From NCBI GenBank assembly GCA_018333865.1, contig JAGXSE010000026.1, positions 1-47,571 on the forward strand: a stretch of DNA of 47,571 nt, in the 5' to 3' direction. This document shows, in pieces, positions 32,351-43,960 of this stretch. How positions within the stretch are numbered: the stretch's first letter is position 1; each line of letters starts with the position of its first letter. Source of the DNA: Syntrophomonadaceae bacterium (lineage in GTDB: Bacteria; Bacillota; PH28-bin88). Both the position numbers and the translations under genes were made by a program. The notes under the pieces are model-generated. The model saw only the letters and a list, made by a program, of their open reading frames with translations. It did no database searches and was not told where the DNA came from.

Positions 32351-32437
32351 GCGGCAGTGGCGGAATTGGCAGACGCGCTAGATTCAGGGTCTAGTGAACG
32401 TACGTTCATGGGGGTTCAAGTCCCTTCTGCCGCACCA
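32351..32437 (+). tRNA. tRNA-Leu(CAG)
   Basis: 87 nt including an encoded CCA. The acceptor arms GCGGCAG and CTGCCGC pair; D-arm GGCGGAATTGGCAGAC is typical of leucine tRNA. The anticodon stem CTAGA/TCTAG encloses loop TTCAGGG, giving anticodon CAG. A long variable arm (GAACGTACGTTC) and GGGGTTCAAGTCCC T-arm follow. It marks the insertion point of the island to the right. Confidence 0.95.
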
Positions 32438-32578: not shown

Positions 32579-32780
32579 TTATTCGCCCTGCACCTTCGCA
32601 GGGCCTTTTCTTTTGTCCAACAACCCATCCAAACTCGCTGCTGCCAGCTTTGCCATCTCCGGTGTAACATGGCTGTAAAGGTCAAGGGTCATGGTTATGC
32701 TGGAATGGCCCAGCCTTTCCTGCGCCAGTTTAGCAGGTATGCCTCGCTGCAGCAGCAGGGTAGCGTGTGTGTGCAGCAAG
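32579..32780 (-). pseudogene. Tyrosine recombinase (integrase), C-terminal remnant
   Basis: About 67 residues on the minus strand match the end of an integrase catalytic domain: HTHATLLLQRGIPAKLAQE, RLGHSSITMTLDLYSHV with the likely nucleophile tyrosine, then PEMAKLAAASLDGLLDKRKG to the stop at 32579. The arginine of the usual HDLRHTHA is lost (FLLHTHA), and recognisable similarity stops near 32780, so the N-terminal and core halves are absent. Position and direction beside tRNA-Leu are those of an island integrase. The product cannot be active. Confidence 0.82.
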
Positions 32781-32803
32781 AAATCCAAATGCTTGGATTT
32801 CTT
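32778..32803. repeat. Perfect 11-bp inverted repeat at the integrase break point
   Basis: AAGAAATCCAA (32778-32788) and TTGGATTTCTT (32793-32803) enclose ATGC. It lies exactly where recognisable similarity to the minus-strand integrase ends. It may be a recombination scar, an element end or a terminator for either direction. Confidence 0.6.
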
Positions 32804-32865
32804 CGCCACGCTTTTGCTCTTCAGTTTCTCCGCAATGGCAGGCATGCCCTTGCTCTGTAGCGGCT

Positions 32866-33000
32866 CTCGGCCACACAGACTTATGCATGACCAAGAGATA
32901 TGTGGTACATGCAAAACAGGATATCCGGGAGCAGCATACTCTGGCAACTTTCCTGAATTCCATACTACCTAATAGCGATAGAGTTAGAAAGACAAGGTAG
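32866..33000 (+). pseudogene. Second tyrosine recombinase, C-terminal remnant
   Basis: On the plus strand, codons from 32866 read LGHTDLCMTKRYVVHAKQD and continue to IREQHTLATFLNSILPNS and a stop at 32998-33000. LGHTD-x2-MT-x-RYVH is the box II/nucleophile end of XerC/phage-type recombinases. It differs from the minus-strand remnant (LGHSSI, YSHV), so it comes from another recombinase. Nothing upstream in frame looks like the rest of it. Two unrelated integrase ends facing each other indicate repeated insertion and deletion at this tRNA. Confidence 0.7.
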
Positions 33001-35678: not shown

Positions 35679-38600
35679 ATGGAAGGAAAAAAGGGCATTC
35701 TTGCAGAATATAGCCACAATTTCAAACAAGATTTACGGAGAAAAAAAGATATGAGCAGTAAAGAAAACTTCCGGGAAATAGCTGAAATTTGGCTGGAGAA
35801 ACTGGAATCATGCCAGTTTGCAGGAGAGATATATATAGATGAGGACCAGATGAGGCAGATTGCTGGTGAAATGATTCGAAAATATGATTCTGGCCAGATT
35901 ACTGCTGATCAGTACGCAACAATACTTGTTATCACTGCTGTGAACTGTGCCTATCATTACTATGATGACGAAGGTTTCTGGCCTCACTTTGCAAGACTGG
36001 TTCGAAAGGACCTTTCGGATTTTCAAATGGAGACGTTTGGCCGCACTATTGAAGTAAAGCTGGATACTCTTGGGTTACTTAGAACAAGGAGAACAGGTCC
36101 TTTCCGTTATGTTGGAGCCCTCCTCGAGCAGTGTGGTGTGTCAAGGAGGTACATAGCCCCATTTGCTCGTATCTTGCGTGAATTAAGTTGTGGCCGCCAG
36201 AGCTGGGATTCTGTTGTGGCTATAAGTTATAGAGAATTCCAGAGGATTATCTCTGAGTTGAACTGTTCAAAATATCTCAAGAGCTTCCTCATGGATGCTG
36301 AGGGATGGAAATTCACTATTCAGGTATGTCAGTTGCTCCAGTACTACGAACTGGGGATAATGACGCTGACAAACCTCACGGAGATACCTGGATTTCAACC
36401 ACATTTCTGGCAGGAATTAATCAGTCACCTGGCTCTACGGGCGAGGACTGAGAGAAAAAAACAAAGTCTGGTATTCAGGCCAAGAATATGCTTTTTTCCA
36501 GAAAAAGGTCGTATTGGTCTGGCCTTTCCCTCATCGCAATATCTGCACGGAATGACTCAACCATCAATAGCCCTACCCTGGGATTTTCCCGTGACCCTGT
36601 TCGATAGAAATGAAAGTTTGTGGTCATTGAAGTATTCCGGGACCATTAAAAATCCTGACGGTACAGCACAAAACTGGGAGATTGATGGCTGGGTTCCAGA
36701 CGGGAGGCCAGTTGTATTTGACATCCGCCACGGACTAATCAGTCGCGGGGCAGTGGTTTCCCCTGGCGAATATTTCCTTCTGGTTCCCCGTGGCTATACC
36801 CATGGCTGTAGTACCAGAAAGAATTTTGGGTCCGTAATGCTCCCTGGAGATTGGAATTATCACGCTTTTCAGGTCCAAATAAATGTGGGTGATTTTGTTG
36901 CCGGGTACAATACAGAAACGGAGCGTTCACCGGAAATCACTCTTGAGTGGTCAGTCCCCGAGAAAAAACAATTCGTGATGACGACACCCGGCCTTGAGGT
37001 CTTCTCTGGTTCCATGCCGGAAATGACTATCTCTGATTTTTCACTGGTTGAGAGCAATATCGTTGGACTATTCTTTGAAACCAATTTCGGTACTGGGTGG
37101 ATCAGGAACAAGGAGGGACTGCAGGACTTCAGGCAGGAATGCAATAAAAGAGTGCCTGTTGTCGGGCGCATCTGGCTTTCCTACCTTAGTAGAAGTATGA
37201 ACTCCGATAGTTTACAGGCATCTTCCCAAGTAGAATTCTGTCTTCTGCCAGAGCTTGGACTGAAGTTTGAAAACAGGCTTTATGGATTTGATGAGGAAGC
37301 AGTTATTTCCGGGAACTTCTCCTGTTGCAAGGTTATATTTGAAGGCTGCAAATATAACCCTGACGATAGGTGTTGGATAGTCCCTTCAAACCTGGATGAG
37401 GTATCAGGAAACGTGACCTGTGGTGAAGTCTCGGTATCAATAAAATCAAGGCTTTTCAGAGCCCGAATGTTTGGTACCGACGGCAGATCTCTCAGATATC
37501 TTATGGGAACCGATCTGGTAAGTTTAGAAGGCATAATACTTTCAGGGTACCCCGAAGGAGAGGCAGTTCTTTTCCTGGATGGAGAGAGCGAGAGGAGGTT
37601 AGCTGTTAAATACGATACCTGGGGTCGGTCAGAAATAAACCCTGTACAGATAATGGAGTTCTTGCGGCATTCCCCTAACCAGATTAGCGAGGTTCTTGTC
37701 AGCTGTATGGGCAGTAGAGTGACTACAGGGACAGTGATTGTTGATCTCGAGAACTTGAAGAGAAGGATTTTCCTGGGTGAAAAGTACTCAATATCGGTAT
37801 GTTCGGCAATGAATCTCAAGAAGCTCATTCATGTCTGTGAGCGTCTCTGTATTGGGGAACGAGCCACGATAAACTTGAACAATTTGCCTGGAATAACCAC
37901 CGAGTTCAATTACTGGGTTAACAGTATTTTTGCATGTGCCAGCCTTATTGATAATACAGACATACGGGTCGAAGGTCGACCGGTTGACTGGAAATCCCAA
38001 CTTCTGGATAATAAGCTCCGGCAGATTCTGGAAGCCTATGCAAGCAGGAATGAAAATGACCAGATAGCGAACTTTGCCGTCTCAGATATAGATATAATAC
38101 CATCGGTTGCTCGGTGGCAACGGGCCGTGAGGGAGGCGATAGGACACTTCACACCCTCAGAATTAATATCTTCCCTTCAGGAATGGGCAGTTGACGTGAA
38201 AGAGAATCGGCTTCCGACAAGGAGCCAGATATCAAAAAGAACCGGTGGGACAAACCTAACAAGGGGATGGGTAAATTATTACCATGCTGGCAGGTATGAG
38301 GACACACTGCAAATCCTTGCCAGTATGGAAAGAGAATCACCGATTATGCGGGATACAGGTAATTTTCTTCTAGCCTTACTTTTTCTGAGGCAGGCCCGCA
38401 TCCGTTCTGCATTCGAGTTATTAGAGGACAAGAAATCGCCAGGAATCTTTCCCCAAGAGTATTACCTTCTAAGATATATTATCTCAGTGTTTCTAGACCA
38501 CAGCCCTCCCCCTCTGGACATCAAGGAATTCACCCCCAGTCTACCCTTGCGACCTGAAGACAGAGTTTTACTTGACATCGCACTGGAGGTACAGGGCAAT

Positions 38601-38801
38601 TCTGGAAGAGCAGGCCGTTATGGTATTGATACTGATGACTGGCTTGTGCTGTTGTTTATCCTGCATATATCTCAAGACAGAAAAGATAGGGAGATCGTTC
38701 TTGGCAGAATTCATAGTATCAGAAAGAGTATCCCCTCCTCCCCAGAATTATCAGTAGTTGAAAAAATAAAGAAACTTGCAGGAGGAAGTTACAGTGCATG
38801 A
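35679..38801 (+). CDS. Large protein of unknown function, first gene of the defence operon
   Basis: 1040 residues that I do not recognise. ATG 35679 has AAGGGG 6 nt upstream; ATG 35751 with GGAG is an alternative. Three zones can be seen. Residues ~25-270 are helical, with YHYYDDEGFWPHFARLV and a hydrophobic pattern that may bind DNA or protein. Residues ~270-740 are rich in beta strands (for example EIDGWVPDGRPVVFDI, EYFLLVPRGYTHGC). Residues ~790-1035 are helical, with a TPR-like stretch (GWVNYYHAGRYEDTLQILAS). No nuclease, ATPase or membrane motif is evident. It overlaps the next gene by 8 nt. It fills the place where class 2 DISARM has drmE, but I cannot show homology. Confidence 0.8.
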   Translation: MEGKKGILAEYSHNFKQDLRRKKDMSSKENFREIAEIWLEKLESCQFAGEIYIDEDQMRQIAGEMIRKYDSGQITADQYATILVITAVNCAYHYYDDEGFWPHFARLVRKDLSDFQMETFGRTIEVKLDTLGLLRTRRTGPFRYVGALLEQCGVSRRYIAPFARILRELSCGRQSWDSVVAISYREFQRIISELNCSKYLKSFLMDAEGWKFTIQVCQLLQYYELGIMTLTNLTEIPGFQPHFWQELISHLALRARTERKKQSLVFRPRICFFPEKGRIGLAFPSSQYLHGMTQPSIALPWDFPVTLFDRNESLWSLKYSGTIKNPDGTAQNWEIDGWVPDGRPVVFDIRHGLISRGAVVSPGEYFLLVPRGYTHGCSTRKNFGSVMLPGDWNYHAFQVQINVGDFVAGYNTETERSPEITLEWSVPEKKQFVMTTPGLEVFSGSMPEMTISDFSLVESNIVGLFFETNFGTGWIRNKEGLQDFRQECNKRVPVVGRIWLSYLSRSMNSDSLQASSQVEFCLLPELGLKFENRLYGFDEEAVISGNFSCCKVIFEGCKYNPDDRCWIVPSNLDEVSGNVTCGEVSVSIKSRLFRARMFGTDGRSLRYLMGTDLVSLEGIILSGYPEGEAVLFLDGESERRLAVKYDTWGRSEINPVQIMEFLRHSPNQISEVLVSCMGSRVTTGTVIVDLENLKRRIFLGEKYSISVCSAMNLKKLIHVCERLCIGERATINLNNLPGITTEFNYWVNSIFACASLIDNTDIRVEGRPVDWKSQLLDNKLRQILEAYASRNENDQIANFAVSDIDIIPSVARWQRAVREAIGHFTPSELISSLQEWAVDVKENRLPTRSQISKRTGGTNLTRGWVNYYHAGRYEDTLQILASMERESPIMRDTGNFLLALLFLRQARIRSAFELLEDKKSPGIFPQEYYLLRYIISVFLDHSPPPLDIKEFTPSLPLRPEDRVLLDIALEVQGNSGRAGRYGIDTDDWLVLLFILHISQDRKDREIVLGRIHSIRKSIPSSPELSVVEKIKKLAGGSYSA

Positions 38802-40128
38802 TGTCATCAGAGAAGTTGAGGTTCTGTCCGAAAAATACCGGAATAACAATAAGCTGAGCCGGGTGGATGCATTGAAGGTTGAGGAATCGCTGGGCCTTCT
38901 CTTTATGGCTCCTGAAACCTTTGAGGTTGCATGTTATCTGATGCTGAAGCTGCCTTCAGATTGTGCATGCAGGGCACTCATCTCTTCACTGCAAGGTGGT
39001 GATACGGAAAGGCAGAATAAGATTGATAGCATTGTCAAACACAAGGGGTTTAACAGTTTTTCAGGTCGTTGCCGACAGCTGGAATTGCTTAAACTCATGA
39101 TAGCAGATTCGAAAAGGAGTGCATTTTTCCTTCTAACTCATCTTGCTGAACAGCTTACAATGGCAGGAAGAAAGAAGCCAGGTTCCCGGATTGTTGCCAT
39201 GTTTCGTGAAAGAATGATGGACAACCTTGAGCTATTACAAATCCCGCTAGAAAAGCTGAGCGTAAGTCCCAGGCAAATCAGTAATATCTCCGCCCTTGTG
39301 CTTTTGGGCCTTGTTGATATGCACAGGCAGGATCCTGGAAGTGATGGCAAAAAAATAAAGTTCCTTGAGTGGTTAGCAGGTTCCGGTAGCCAGCCTACCC
39401 TTTCGGATACATTTGTTTGCGAAGTTGAAAAGGATACAGCAAGCTGGGCTGAGGATATTCAGCGGGAATGTGTTCGACTTGGCCTGATCAGGATCGTGAC
39501 TTTTCGGACTGAGAGCGAAACTCAAACTCCTAAAAAAGAGACAGCGAAGTCTGAGATTGCTCATGTAACAGATTTCGATGGGGTTCCGAAGATTGAACAG
39601 GGCAAAGGTACCACAATCTGGGACAGAAGCTCGGGTCCCGTCAGACAGCTTGAGGCGGTAGCTGAATATCTTATCAGTCTTGAGGAATATCTTGCCAGCC
39701 TGAAAAAGGAGTTGCACAGTATTCAGGCTAATCTGGACTCTGAAAAGAAACAGAGGCTTGAGAGTCAGATGCTTGTTGCCAGACTGAAGGAGGATAACCG
39801 CAGTCTTGCTTTACAAAACAAGGAAATGAGCACAGGGCTGGAAGCGGCTGAAAAAACAGTTCTCCATCTGGAGAGGGAAGCCGAAAATCGGAGCAAGGCA
39901 CACCGGGAGGAAATAGATCTCCTTCTCAGCCAGATGGACAAGGAAACCGATTATAACATGAAGGAATTTAAGAATATGCTGGCTCAATCCCTCAGATTAC
40001 AATATATGAACTTTCTTGAAGTGGAAGACACGCCCATGACTGCCGATCTTGGCGAACATCTGCGATACTCTATCAGGAAGGTATTCAAGCTGCTGGAGGC
40101 CAGGGGCATTTCAGTGGAGGAAGGATGA
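38794..40128 (+). CDS. Helical protein with coiled coil, possible Hsp70 partner
   Basis: About 444 residues from GTG 38794, chosen for GGAGG at 38781-38785; it overlaps the previous gene by 8 nt. Residues 1-200 are almost all helical and HEAT-like in look. A polar linker follows. Residues ~285-390 form a strong coiled coil with heptads (QLEAVAEYLISLEEYLASL onward, many E/K/L). The last ~50 residues form a small helical end with HLRYSIRKVFKLLEARGISV. The layout of coiled coil plus small C-terminal domain, directly before an Hsp70 gene, resembles GrpE-type exchange factors in outline only. A scaffold role is as likely. Not recognised as a named family. Confidence 0.78.
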   Translation: MHDVIREVEVLSEKYRNNNKLSRVDALKVEESLGLLFMAPETFEVACYLMLKLPSDCACRALISSLQGGDTERQNKIDSIVKHKGFNSFSGRCRQLELLKLMIADSKRSAFFLLTHLAEQLTMAGRKKPGSRIVAMFRERMMDNLELLQIPLEKLSVSPRQISNISALVLLGLVDMHRQDPGSDGKKIKFLEWLAGSGSQPTLSDTFVCEVEKDTASWAEDIQRECVRLGLIRIVTFRTESETQTPKKETAKSEIAHVTDFDGVPKIEQGKGTTIWDRSSGPVRQLEAVAEYLISLEEYLASLKKELHSIQANLDSEKKQRLESQMLVARLKEDNRSLALQNKEMSTGLEAAEKTVLHLEREAENRSKAHREEIDLLLSQMDKETDYNMKEFKNMLAQSLRLQYMNFLEVEDTPMTADLGEHLRYSIRKVFKLLEARGISVEEG

Positions 40129-40136
40129 TCTGAATT

Positions 40137-41567
40137 ATGAATTTTGGGATTGATTTCGGTACAACGAACAGTGCCTGTATGGCCATTCAGGAAAGAAGAA
40201 GATCTGTCAAGTATACTGATGGATATGGAAACCCTTTCCCCTCACTGGTTATCGTGGACCGGGTGACGGGTAAGGTGCATCGTGGCAGGGAAGCCTGGAA
40301 AAACCGGGAAGAGCTCAGCGATTCCTGTGAGGTAATTCCCTCTGTAAAAACATACCTTGGTACGAATAAGACATGGAAGATAAAAGGGAAAGAGTGGACA
40401 CCAGAGATGGTTGCAGCAGAAGTCTTCCGGGGTCTTAAGGAGCAGGTAAGCAAAAAGGGGGCCGTAGACCGGTTAGAGGAGGCTGTGGTGGCGGTACCGG
40501 TAGGCTTTCCCACAGGAAAGAGAGTGGCACTGAGGCGGGCTGCACAGATCGCAGGGATATCAATTCAGAGTTTTGTCAGCGAGCCCACAGCTGCATTGTT
40601 TTGCCATTATGGCGAGATAGGGATGTACCCCACGATAGGTGTACTGGACTGGGGCGGAGGCACTCTTGATATAGCGATTATTGAGAACAGAAAAGGACGG
40701 ATAAGAGAGCTTTCCACCAGCGGCCTCAATCTTGGCGGGGACAATATTGACAGAAAGCTTGCTGAGTGGGCTCACGATAGAGTGGTCAAGGAAAAGGGAG
40801 GCGGTATCTCGTTTGCGCAGATGCCTTCAGGTGCGCGCGACAGATTGATCGCCAGCTGTGAGCAGGCAAAAAAGGATCTTACTAATGACGATCAGACCGA
40901 AATCAGGATCTGGCGGTATGGAGATTTTGGAGAGATTAACATTGTAATTGATATCGAAATGTTTTCCAGCCTTATAGCTCCTGATATTGCACAGGTAATC
41001 AGCTGTTTTGAAGAGAGTGTTTCCCGGGCCAGGTTAAGTTTTGAAGAGCTGGGATGTATCCTTATGGTCGGGGGAAGTGTAAATCTGCGACCATTCAGCA
41101 ATGCTGTGGCCAGTAGATGGAAGGGGAAGGTCTTTTATCCGGGAGATTCTGACTGGAGCGTTGCAAGGGGCGCAGCTAATCTTAGCCTACAGCCAGGAAA
41201 CTATGTACTGGCACAGGATGTTAGTGTCCGGATGTCTGATGGTAGCCTTTTCCCACTTGTCAGTCAGGGGGATCATGTTACTTTTGGTAACACCACAACA
41301 TACACCTTTGCTCTTGTCGAGGATTCTTCAACCGCAAATTTTGTTATCTGCGATGAGAATGGCAGGAATATTGGCTACCTGAATGTCCCATCCTTCGGTT
41401 TCTTTCGAGAAAAGATTCCGCTGATTGTTGCAATAGATAATAACATGATATTTCAGGTGACTGCAAGAAGTCAGGAAAGAGCCGAGATTACAAGACAGGG
41501 GTGGCGTTTTGCTGGTCTTCGATTGGATTACCAGCTCCCGGTAGTCGATCTTGAGGTGACTGAGTGA
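40137..41567 (+). CDS. Hsp70-like ATPase, short form without lid
   Basis: 476 residues. The actin/Hsp70 ATPase is complete: NFGIDFGTTNSACMA (phosphate 1, residues 2-16), VVAVPVGFPTGKRVALRRA, QSFVSEPTAALFCHY (connect 1), GVLDWGGGTLDIAII (phosphate 2, ~residue 171) and CILMVGGSVNLRPF (adenosine, ~311). After ~residue 360 there is a beta-rich domain like the substrate-binding beta-subdomain (FTYTFALVED-type strands), but no helical lid and no EEVD-like tail. DnaK is ~640 residues. It is sandwiched by coiled-coil and SF1 helicase genes, unlike dnaK with grpE/dnaJ, so it is probably a specialised chaperone-type switch of the defence complex. Confidence 0.88.
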   Translation: MNFGIDFGTTNSACMAIQERRRSVKYTDGYGNPFPSLVIVDRVTGKVHRGREAWKNREELSDSCEVIPSVKTYLGTNKTWKIKGKEWTPEMVAAEVFRGLKEQVSKKGAVDRLEEAVVAVPVGFPTGKRVALRRAAQIAGISIQSFVSEPTAALFCHYGEIGMYPTIGVLDWGGGTLDIAIIENRKGRIRELSTSGLNLGGDNIDRKLAEWAHDRVVKEKGGGISFAQMPSGARDRLIASCEQAKKDLTNDDQTEIRIWRYGDFGEINIVIDIEMFSSLIAPDIAQVISCFEESVSRARLSFEELGCILMVGGSVNLRPFSNAVASRWKGKVFYPGDSDWSVARGAANLSLQPGNYVLAQDVSVRMSDGSLFPLVSQGDHVTFGNTTTYTFALVEDSSTANFVICDENGRNIGYLNVPSFGFFREKIPLIVAIDNNMIFQVTARSQERAEITRQGWRFAGLRLDYQLPVVDLEVTE

Positions 41568-43960
41568 TGCAAGGACCGTCAAATATAGAATGTTCAAGTA
41601 ATGTATATATACTGAAGGGAGATTTTTATAGAGACAGGGAATTTCAGGCAAGGGTTAGAGGGCGAAAAAATCTCCATACCATGCTCAGGATTCTAGCGGG
41701 TCTGTCATGGGTACCTGGAGAGGTCTCCGTTGACGAGTATGTTGACAGATACCTGACACAGAGCCAGAAAGATGAATGGGAAAAAGGGAAGCCATGCGCC
41801 TTGGTTGAAAATCGTGATGAACTTGTTTGGGGCCTGGTAAGGCGTGATAATGGACAGTTTGTTGAGTGCCGGTGCTACAGAACCCAGTGCTCACTCTTCA
41901 GAAGTTGTCGGCCTGATTACCCGGCTGACAGTCCCGAAATCCTTCCACCCGAAAGACTACCTTCCTGTGACCATGGCGAACCGAATGAAGAGCAAACATT
42001 GCCAATAGTAGATCTGGATTTGATTTCAAGATACGAGGACAAGTTGTCTGATGGCCTGTCAGGGGACGCAATAATTATAGACTTTGAAGACGAACCTGAA
42101 ATCATTCCACCCATTTTCGAGTGGAAGTTGCCCTCATCAGACCCATCACCGGCAGTTGATAGACAGGAAGTTATTATTAGAAGCCTTCCCCATGAATACA
42201 TGCTGGTACAGGCTGGACCAGGAACCGGCAAAACCCATTCGCTTCTAAGGAAGCTTGAATACATGGTTGATGAGAATAGAATGGTTGAGGCCGATTCAGT
42301 GTTGCTTCTCTGTTTCACCAGAGCTGCTGTCAGTGAAATAAAGGACAGATTTAAGGCTGGTGTTGATTCTGGCAAGTACTCCGATGATCTGTCCCGGTTA
42401 GAGATCAGAACTTTTGATTCATTTGCCACCAGGGTGCTGATTGCCCGTAATATTGATCTGACAGGAAAGGATTATAATAGCCGTATTGAAATGGCTATAC
42501 AGGAGATACAGGCCGACCCTGAAATAATTGGTGAAATGAGACATTTAATAGTTGATGAGATCCAGGATCTGGTTGGAATCCGGGCTCGACTGGTGCAGGC
42601 AATCCTGTCATGCAAGCCTCCAGACTGCGGCTTCACTCTTCTGGGAGATTCCCTTCAAGGAATCTATGATTATCAGATTAAGGACTGTCCCGGTGAACCT
42701 GGGGCGACAGATCTGCTTGAATGGATAATGAGTAATTTCCCAGATCGGCTAGGGGTGGTAACACTTGATCGGAATTTTCGCCAGAATGGTGAACTGGCGT
42801 CCTTCATGGCAAAGTCACGAATGTTGCTGGAGGGGGGGACAGAAAGGGCAGTCCGCACGTTTATCCGTAGTGTGGAGGAGCTAAAGTGCTGCGGTAAGGA
42901 TTATAACTTTCCGCTGCCCCTTGAAAATCACAAAAAAATTGGTATACTGTGCCGAACCAATGGTGAGGCACTAAAAATATCCAACTATTTCAGGCAACGA
43001 GGAGTTGACCATGTGCTGAGGAGGCACCAGGATTCTCCTGAATTGCCACCGTGGATAGCCGAAGTGTTATCGGCAGGAGAGGTACATCTGACCAGGGAAC
43101 AGTTCATCAACATTGTGACCAGTCTTGACCTGCGACACCCCATGGATAACGAAAAACTTTATAGTGTCCTGCATTCAGTAGGAGATCAGAACACGCCCCG
43201 GGTTCTTAATCTTAACGGCTTGAAAAGAGCACTGGCTCTTGGTGCGCGCCTTCCGGATGAGTTATACGAGGAAAGGCGGTGCCATATATTTTTGAGTACC
43301 ATTCACCAGTCCAAGGGACGAGAGTTTGAAGAGGTTTTTCTTCTCTCTCCACGGCTGAATGAGAAGGATCAAATCATGGAGGAAGCCAAGGTGCTTTATG
43401 TTGCAGTTACGAGGGCGAGACAATCTCTGGAAATAATAAAAAGATCATTCAGCAGGGAATGGCTGACGAAGTCAGAAACAGTGGATCGCTGGTTGGAAGT
43501 AGCCAATAAGAGGGGTGGCGGTAAGACCCTGGTTAGCCTTGAGGTGGGGAGGGAGCAGGATGTTGATAATCAGGGTTTTGTGGATGGACTTTTGGTCAGT
43601 AACCCGGAGGAAAACCAGATTTATCTCAGAATGCATGTTGTACCAGGAGACAGGGTGGAAATTAGAATGGGGGAAGAAATGGATTTTTATGGAATCTATC
43701 ACAAAAGAAGACTTATTGGTAGGATGTCCATGAAATTCCATCTTGAGGTAGGGGAAATCATGAAAGAGGTTTATGGGTCTTCCTCACACAGACCAATGGC
43801 ATTTGAAGAGATATATATTGATCAGGTGCATTCTGTAGTAAAAAAGCCGGAGACGCTCAGGAAGACTGTACCTGAACCTTACTTTACCAGCGGGGTGTGG
43901 CATGGGGTAAGCCTTTCCGGCCTTGCCAAGGTGTTCTGGCCATGGGATTGTAGGAGGTGA
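41567..43960 (+). CDS. UvrD/PcrA-like SF1 helicase with unique N-terminal domain
   Basis: About 797 residues from ATG 41567 (GTG 41564 also possible), coupled to the Hsp70 stop by TGATG with GAGGTGA upstream. SF1 motifs in order: I QAGPGTGKTHSLL (~217), Ia LLCFTRAAVSEIKD, II IVDEIQDL (~329), III LLGDSLQGIYDY (~360), IV LDRNFRQNGE (~402), V STIHQSKGREFEEVF (~577), VI VLYVAVTRARQSLE (~611). The N-terminal ~200 residues are not helicase and contain a cysteine-rich CRCYRTQCSLFRSC. No RecB-type nuclease is seen at the C-terminus, though ~170 residues follow motif VI. It likely moves along ssDNA with 3'-5' polarity, as does the family. Confidence 0.87.
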   Translation: MQGPSNIECSSNVYILKGDFYRDREFQARVRGRKNLHTMLRILAGLSWVPGEVSVDEYVDRYLTQSQKDEWEKGKPCALVENRDELVWGLVRRDNGQFVECRCYRTQCSLFRSCRPDYPADSPEILPPERLPSCDHGEPNEEQTLPIVDLDLISRYEDKLSDGLSGDAIIIDFEDEPEIIPPIFEWKLPSSDPSPAVDRQEVIIRSLPHEYMLVQAGPGTGKTHSLLRKLEYMVDENRMVEADSVLLLCFTRAAVSEIKDRFKAGVDSGKYSDDLSRLEIRTFDSFATRVLIARNIDLTGKDYNSRIEMAIQEIQADPEIIGEMRHLIVDEIQDLVGIRARLVQAILSCKPPDCGFTLLGDSLQGIYDYQIKDCPGEPGATDLLEWIMSNFPDRLGVVTLDRNFRQNGELASFMAKSRMLLEGGTERAVRTFIRSVEELKCCGKDYNFPLPLENHKKIGILCRTNGEALKISNYFRQRGVDHVLRRHQDSPELPPWIAEVLSAGEVHLTREQFINIVTSLDLRHPMDNEKLYSVLHSVGDQNTPRVLNLNGLKRALALGARLPDELYEERRCHIFLSTIHQSKGREFEEVFLLSPRLNEKDQIMEEAKVLYVAVTRARQSLEIIKRSFSREWLTKSETVDRWLEVANKRGGGKTLVSLEVGREQDVDNQGFVDGLLVSNPEENQIYLRMHVVPGDRVEIRMGEEMDFYGIYHKRRLIGRMSMKFHLEVGEIMKEVYGSSSHRPMAFEEIYIDQVHSVVKKPETLRKTVPEPYFTSGVWHGVSLSGLAKVFWPWDCRR

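Follow-up and report, generated by a model that had tools for sequence, protein, structure and literature searches.

A lidless Hsp70 block found with two kinds of helicase defence system suggests an ATP-driven switch for immunity

Genes of the locus

We analysed a contig of 47,571 bases (JAGXSE010000026.1, assembly GCA_018333865.1; hereafter the window), which is part of the 3.2-Mb genome of a Syntrophomonadaceae bacterium (Bacillota) and whose end is also the end of the window. Its plus strand carries a tightly packed operon that encodes, in order, a large first protein (X), an alpha-solenoid and coiled-coil protein (CC), a lidless Hsp70-like protein, a UvrD-like helicase with an N-terminal cysteine (Cys) domain and the DISARM helicase DrmA (Table 1). 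The junctions X/CC, CC/Hsp70, Hsp70/UvrD and UvrD/DrmA measure -8, +8, -4 and -4 nt. The initial annotation had placed an Hsp70-like and a coiled-coil protein at 38794-41567, inside a defence operon with helicases. Both the coordinates and the setting proved right, with the UvrD-like helicase, DrmA and a DrmMII-type methyltransferase alongside. Relatives of the X-CC-Hsp70 block occur with two kinds of helicase system. This points to the block as a possible ATP-driven switch dedicated to turning immunity on.

Table 1. Features of the operon and its surroundings (positions in the window; aa, amino acids).
Feature	Position	Strand	Basis
tRNA-Leu(CAG), probable island integration site	32351..32437	+	ARAGORN
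Tyrosine recombinase (integrase), C-terminal remnant	32579..32947	-	Pfam Phage_integrase 2.7e-8
C5-cytosine DNA methyltransferase, DrmMII-like, 504 aa	33176..34690	+	PADLOC DrmMII 4.9e-156
HhH-GPD DNA glycosylase / endonuclease III-like, 226 aa	34859..35539	-	library matches
X, large first protein of the block	35679..38801 (alternative ATG 35751)	+	orthologues, AlphaFold2, Ig-repeat fold matches
CC, alpha-solenoid and coiled-coil protein, 444 aa, GTG start, 8-nt overlap with X	38794..40128	+	
CC alpha-solenoid domain, residues 2-228	38797..39477	+	AlphaFold2, high confidence
CC long single helix / coiled coil, residues 282-410	39637..40023	+	AlphaFold2
CC C-terminal helix, residues 417-436	40042..40101	+	AlphaFold2
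Hsp70-like protein (P0003), lidless, 476 aa, begins 8 nt past CC	40137..41567	+	
Hsp70 nucleotide-binding domain, signature DWGGGT (D171-T176)	40137..41186	+	
Probable SBD-beta-like domain, residues ~355-446, no lid after it	41199..41474	+	hhalign to DnaK
UvrD/GajB-like superfamily 1 helicase, 798 aa, N-terminal Cys domain, 4-nt overlap with Hsp70	41564..43960	+	
CRCx4Cx5C motif of the Cys domain (C102-C115)	41867..41908	+	alignment
DrmA, DISARM YprA-family helicase, 1039 aa	43957..47076	+	NF038325 972 bits

Residues 3-347 of the Hsp70-like protein match Pfam HSP70 (2.4e-36) and NCBIfam DnaK (2.3e-39), which groups it with DnaK/HscA. Its profile alignment with DnaK spans 434 columns (hhalign, E 3.7e-47) and reaches residue 446, the counterpart of DnaK residue ~466. 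A beta substrate-binding domain (SBD-beta) is thereby probably present, and this region is conserved in the alignment of the family. The lid-bearing C-terminal part of DnaK (610 aa in the host) is absent, with P0003 stopping 30 residues after the alignment does. The absence of a lid had been predicted, as had the full set of nucleotide motifs: catalytic D6, T9, K71, E149, D171 and T176 are kept in P0003 and conserved in 12/12 operon-linked copies.

In terms of other diagnostic positions, the tryptophan of the signature (W172) occurs in all 14 family members, where the compared DnaKs have leucine (DLGGGT). The equivalent of DnaK R167 is S, N, A, Q or H in 14/14 members, with the arginine present in 4/4 DnaKs. 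The DVLLLD interdomain linker is likewise absent from the 14 and present in the four. In Hsp70 proteins it is through this arginine and linker that J proteins and the substrate domain are coupled to hydrolysis of ATP, and since both are lost, canonical cycling driven by DnaJ is unlikely. Judged by its sequence, P0003 is an unlikely canonical chaperone. The host genome encodes its own dnaK, grpE and dnaJ. Between hrcA and grpE-dnaK-dnaJ we also observed a chaperonin-like gene (L040:5661-7238), which by eye only resembles the archaeal type (group II).

The AlphaFold2 model of CC, built on 10 sequences, has a mean predicted local distance difference test (pLDDT) of 86. It is all helical, with the solenoid followed by disorder at residues 239-278, one helix of 129 residues and a last short helix; in the alignment, conservation of the protein is highest at its C-terminal end. 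The initial annotation had correctly described the long coiled coil and small helical end, leaving the folded first half unmentioned, and had likened the protein to GrpE. This likeness did not hold. The model contains no beta strands and hence no beta wing, Pfam GrpE (PF01025) gives no match to CC (P0002) at E 0.1, the CC profile aligns with host GrpE at E 0.43 (hhalign), and the N-terminal solenoid is an extra domain that GrpE lacks. On these grounds we rejected GrpE as the identity of CC. A fold search returned no match at E <= 0.001. By analogy only, CC is closer to the HEAT-like and coiled-coil parts beside the Hsp70-like domains of CnuD, from the CoCoNuT systems (PMC11090510).

Homologues favour a start of X at ATG 35751, which gives a protein of 1016 aa in place of the 1040 aa read from 35679. 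Counted from this start, the AlphaFold2 model (pLDDT 77) has helical regions at 7-234 and 684-1009 on either side of tandem beta-sandwich domains at 245-664. Family libraries hold no convincing match for X, and no PADLOC model matches it even at E 10. Fold searches give Ig-type repeat proteins, with some phage tail-tip J proteins among the weaker matches. The helical/Ig-like/helical layout and the first-gene position are shared with DruH of Druantia type III, where helical ends surround a core with three Ig-like domains; DruH resembles phage baseplate J proteins and has been argued to be a phage sensor (PMC13192584). Identifying X as DruH by sequence is unsupported, also when an extended N-terminal profile is used, and identifying it as DrmE is equally unsupported.

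X was found only in the operons described here, plus a distant relative in genome G387 that adjoins a DruE-like helicase. Cyanobacterial plasmids have DruE operons (L058-L060) whose first gene shares the N-terminal domain of X, at 7e-12 to 1e-13 in a search of small size, so a link of X to Druantia-type sensors is plausible. DruE-type operons with this helical domain in the first gene and no Hsp70 were observed on these plasmids and at L045:4034-11612; the second gene of the plasmid operons encodes a ~308-aa protein without known function. In one metagenome-assembled genome (MAG; L030:4570-7665, G077:C36) X is broken by a single in-frame TAA, either a nonsense mutation or an assembly error.

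Upstream of the operon, the tRNA-Leu and the adjoining tyrosine-integrase remnant are the probable island boundary. The HhH-GPD glycosylase gene recurs near cytosine methyltransferase or DISARM genes, being found in the window, at L032:19231-20058 and at L067:281-979. It may serve in repair of mismatches from 5-methylcytosine deamination, or as a restriction glycosylase.

Linkage of the block and its helicase partners

The Hsp70 family was collected from 14 loci in Bacillota and Thermodesulfobacteriota (the window, L030-L039, L028, L029 and L079). An alignment-based scan of genome contigs gave 10 loci, and a single-sequence scan gave none. CC lies directly upstream of the Hsp70 in 11 of the 13 readable loci, L039 starting at a contig edge. 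The two loci without it are L028 and L029, whose ATP motifs are degenerate and which lack defence genes. In 13/14 loci the Hsp70 is followed by the Cys domain (invariant N7, S12-N13 and CRCx4C), which forms a fusion with UvrD or with a helical tail, or stands alone as a protein of 113-124 aa; it is an even more constant partner of the Hsp70 than CC. The order CC-Hsp70-Cys is conserved across both phyla, and because it is kept in such distant genomes the pairing is not due to chance.

Among 399 genomes of the phylum, the full-length N-terminal domain of CC was found only beside this Hsp70 (4 genomes). No full CC separated from the Hsp70 was found there; genome G201 has two CC fragments, both at contig ends, with unreadable neighbourhoods. 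A match in G341 was discarded as a false coiled-coil match among SMC- and Ffh-like housekeeping genes. Of the proposed chaperone and exchange-factor pair, the dedicated pairing is borne out and the GrpE-like role of CC is not.

The chromosomal pairs of Hsp70 and Cys-domain/helical protein at L028:8469-10697 and L029:8294-10447 could be a repurposed offshoot of the defence module. These solo copies lie on a long branch of the tree, and L079 is a long branch as well. Outside the genomes, the Hsp70 has no match in plasmids at 1e-45, and its matches in phages are ordinary DnaK/HscA-like proteins of ~30% identity or less. No viral contig carries the Hsp70 C-terminus or X; the CC alignment is too variable for such a scan.

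As for the helicases, the block precedes DrmA in six loci. DrmB (OB-CON-DUF1998/MZB) directly follows DrmA in five of them (L031, L032, L034, L039 and L079), the window contig ending before this point. At L035 (a Desulfomonile MAG) and L036 (a deltaproteobacterial MAG), X-CC-Hsp70-Cys precedes a helicase of 1616/1623 aa, and the best models for that of L035 are DruE (726 bits). As the block is mostly joined to DrmA/DrmB and in two loci to DruE, it is portable: the front end is conserved and the effector changes. The tree leaves unsettled whether the DruE-linked copies derive from the DrmA-linked ones.

Two loci show more variation. In Thermosyntropha lipolytica (L033, 485-12930) CC-Hsp70-Cys comes with a UvrD from which most of the helicase core is missing, and the effector set is a different one, with a downstream phospholipase D (PLD) protein, two large proteins that read as AddB/AddA-like and a protein with a phosphoadenosine phosphosulfate (PAPS)-reductase domain. 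The highly diverged operon L079:1282-13621 (genome G327) encodes an 886-aa first protein unrelated to X by sequence, then CC, Hsp70, a UvrD without Cys domain, DrmA and DrmB. DrmA-short is present in 17 of the 399 genomes, with the Hsp70 alongside in three (the window genome, G080 and G327); the other DrmA-short genomes carry DrmE-like, NERD-UvrD or DrmD genes instead.

The proteins of the window differ in how far they have diverged from their relatives, with identities of 25-38% for X, 20-33% for CC, 40-60% for Hsp70, 39-53% for UvrD and 55-67% for DrmA. Rapid change of X and CC, with slow change of Hsp70 and the helicases, would fit a sensor and adaptor on one side and a switch and effector on the other. 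The pattern of X and CC is that expected if both face changing partners.

A possible switch and its alternatives

We favour, with somewhat less than even confidence, a reading in which X, CC, the lidless Hsp70 and the Cys domain form a portable front end for YprA-family helicase immunity, with an ATP-dependent switch coupling a sensor to the helicases. It draws on the gene linkage and portability, the domain anatomy, the kept ATPase residues, the lost J-coupling and linker residues, the contrast in rates and the recurrence of the X N-terminal domain in DruE operons, and it has a parallel in CoCoNuT CnuD, from another defence family that uses Hsp70-like domains. X, with its several Ig-like domains and DruH-like layout, would detect a phage protein or structure, and CC, through its solenoid and long coiled coil, would hold X and Hsp70 together. 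The Hsp70 would act as an ATP-driven conformational switch and not as a folding chaperone, because its ATPase site is intact and the lid, the J-coupling arginine and the canonical linker are missing. Its nucleotide state would license the UvrD-like and DrmA(B) helicases by way of the Cys domain, which is often fused to the former, with the signal presumably running from X towards the helicases. Once licensed, these would act on incoming DNA, and the methyltransferase would mark self. Control of helicase assembly or activation by the Hsp70-CC pair, as in the initial annotation, is plausible. A broader proposal is slightly more tentative still, namely that the front end (Ig-like sensor, J-protein-independent lidless Hsp70 switch, solenoid/coiled-coil adaptor) is indifferent to the helicase and is plugged into both DISARM (DrmAB) and Druantia (DruE).

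Several points weigh against the switch. Linkage and anatomy are observed, and contacts between the proteins and the switching itself are what we infer from them. Sequence comparison detects no homology between X and E. coli DruH (hhalign E 0.43), and the X model has a predicted template modelling score (pTM) of 0.38. L033 and L079 either lack X or have an unrelated sequence in its place, and L079 also misses the Cys domain. L028 and L029 keep Hsp70 and the Cys protein without a helicase, so the pair can serve another use. The fast evolution of CC possibly means weak constraint. Lastly, the window contig stops at 47571 before any DrmB.

In one alternative the Hsp70 would bind nucleic acid and so direct the complex to phage RNA or single-stranded DNA, as proposed for CnuD, with CC as the scaffold. 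CnuD too belongs to a defence operon and brings together Hsp70-like nucleotide- and substrate-binding domains with HEAT-like repeats and coiled coils (PMC11090510), and the neighbours here are nucleic-acid helicases. The case of CnuD, however, relies on degenerate ATP motifs, whereas the operon-linked copies here keep all ATPase residues. Also, the window operon has neither a recognisable McrB GTPase nor a recognisable RNase, and we consider this alternative unlikely.

Even less probable is that the Hsp70 acts as a decoy or guard, mimicking host DnaK so that phage proteins that recruit chaperones bind it and its occupancy activates the helicases. A lidless protein with conserved SBD-beta region would offer an open platform for substrates, in a host that has the real DnaK system to be mimicked. 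Against this, no phage trigger is known, and a conserved Hsp70 beside fast X and CC is the opposite of the pattern of a baited decoy.

The proposal of a dedicated chaperone with a GrpE-like exchange factor, which would fold or assemble the helicases, is doubtful to a slightly greater degree. It agrees with the tight pairing inside one operon and the intact ATPase motifs; it is opposed by a CC with neither the fold nor the sequence of GrpE, by an Hsp70 devoid of lid, R167 equivalent and linker, and by the window operon, in which no J protein was recognised. It is very improbable that a defence island carries these genes as unrelated passengers, or that a housekeeping pair happens to lie beside DISARM. 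L028 and L029 do have the Hsp70 and Cys protein on the chromosome with no defence genes around them, but these solo copies are long-branched and degenerate at the ATP site; elsewhere the genes overlap, and in two phyla their order stays the same next to different helicases.

Comparison with known systems

The window DrmA scores above the NCBIfam cut-off for DISARM (NF038325, 972 bits vs 950). With DISARM of the DrmA-short and DrmMII kind the operons share DrmA, a DrmMII-type methyltransferase in the window and DrmB in relatives; they differ by having the X-CC-Hsp70-Cys/UvrD block, which a NERD-UvrD protein often accompanies. The PLD nuclease DrmC is absent from the window, whose contig ends early. 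At L031, L032 and L034 there is no DrmC-sized open reading frame beside DrmB in the stretch read, where a DrmC model was run on some of the frames. DrmE of class 2 DISARM was not recognised, X having no PADLOC match at E 10 and CC none at E 0.01.

Druantia type III resembles these operons in the DruH-like layout of X and in the DruE-type helicase of L035 and L036, the window helicase being DrmA and not DruE. In contrast, the E. coli locus (L057) has druH and druE adjacent and no Hsp70 or CC. CoCoNuT CnuD is likewise from a defence operon and has parts of the same kinds, likened by description and not by sequence. Here the solenoid and coiled coil form a separate protein and the ATP motifs are intact, and family-library scans recognised no McrB-like GTPase (CnuB) among the defence genes of the window. 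With DnaK itself, P0003 shares the nucleotide-binding domain, a probable SBD-beta and all catalytic residues, and differs in the lid, the R167 equivalent, the linker and the signature.

ARMADA, BRIGADE and TALON (PMC12458937) also have a YprA-family helicase and, in some, a GajB-like helicase and methyltransferase; Hsp70 goes unmentioned in the main text of that survey. P0003 has no PADLOC match at E 0.01, and the PADLOC models give none for X, CC or Hsp70 of the window or close relatives. The B component of the PADLOC candidate PDC-M61 (PDC-M61B) weakly matches the divergent Hsp70 of L079 (6.6e-7). Full-text searches of open-access literature for Hsp70 together with defence systems gave only the CoCoNuT papers as relevant, and a description elsewhere is possible.

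A module swapped between DrmAB and DruE helicases indicates a shared logic of control that is distinct from the effector. It bears on the way in which DISARM and its YprA-helicase kin recognise infection and are kept inactive in healthy cells, and, if true, an Hsp70 working in immunity as a switch independent of J proteins and lid would be unusual. Set beside the known systems, these operons are DISARM/Druantia-class systems with a so far undescribed Hsp70 module.

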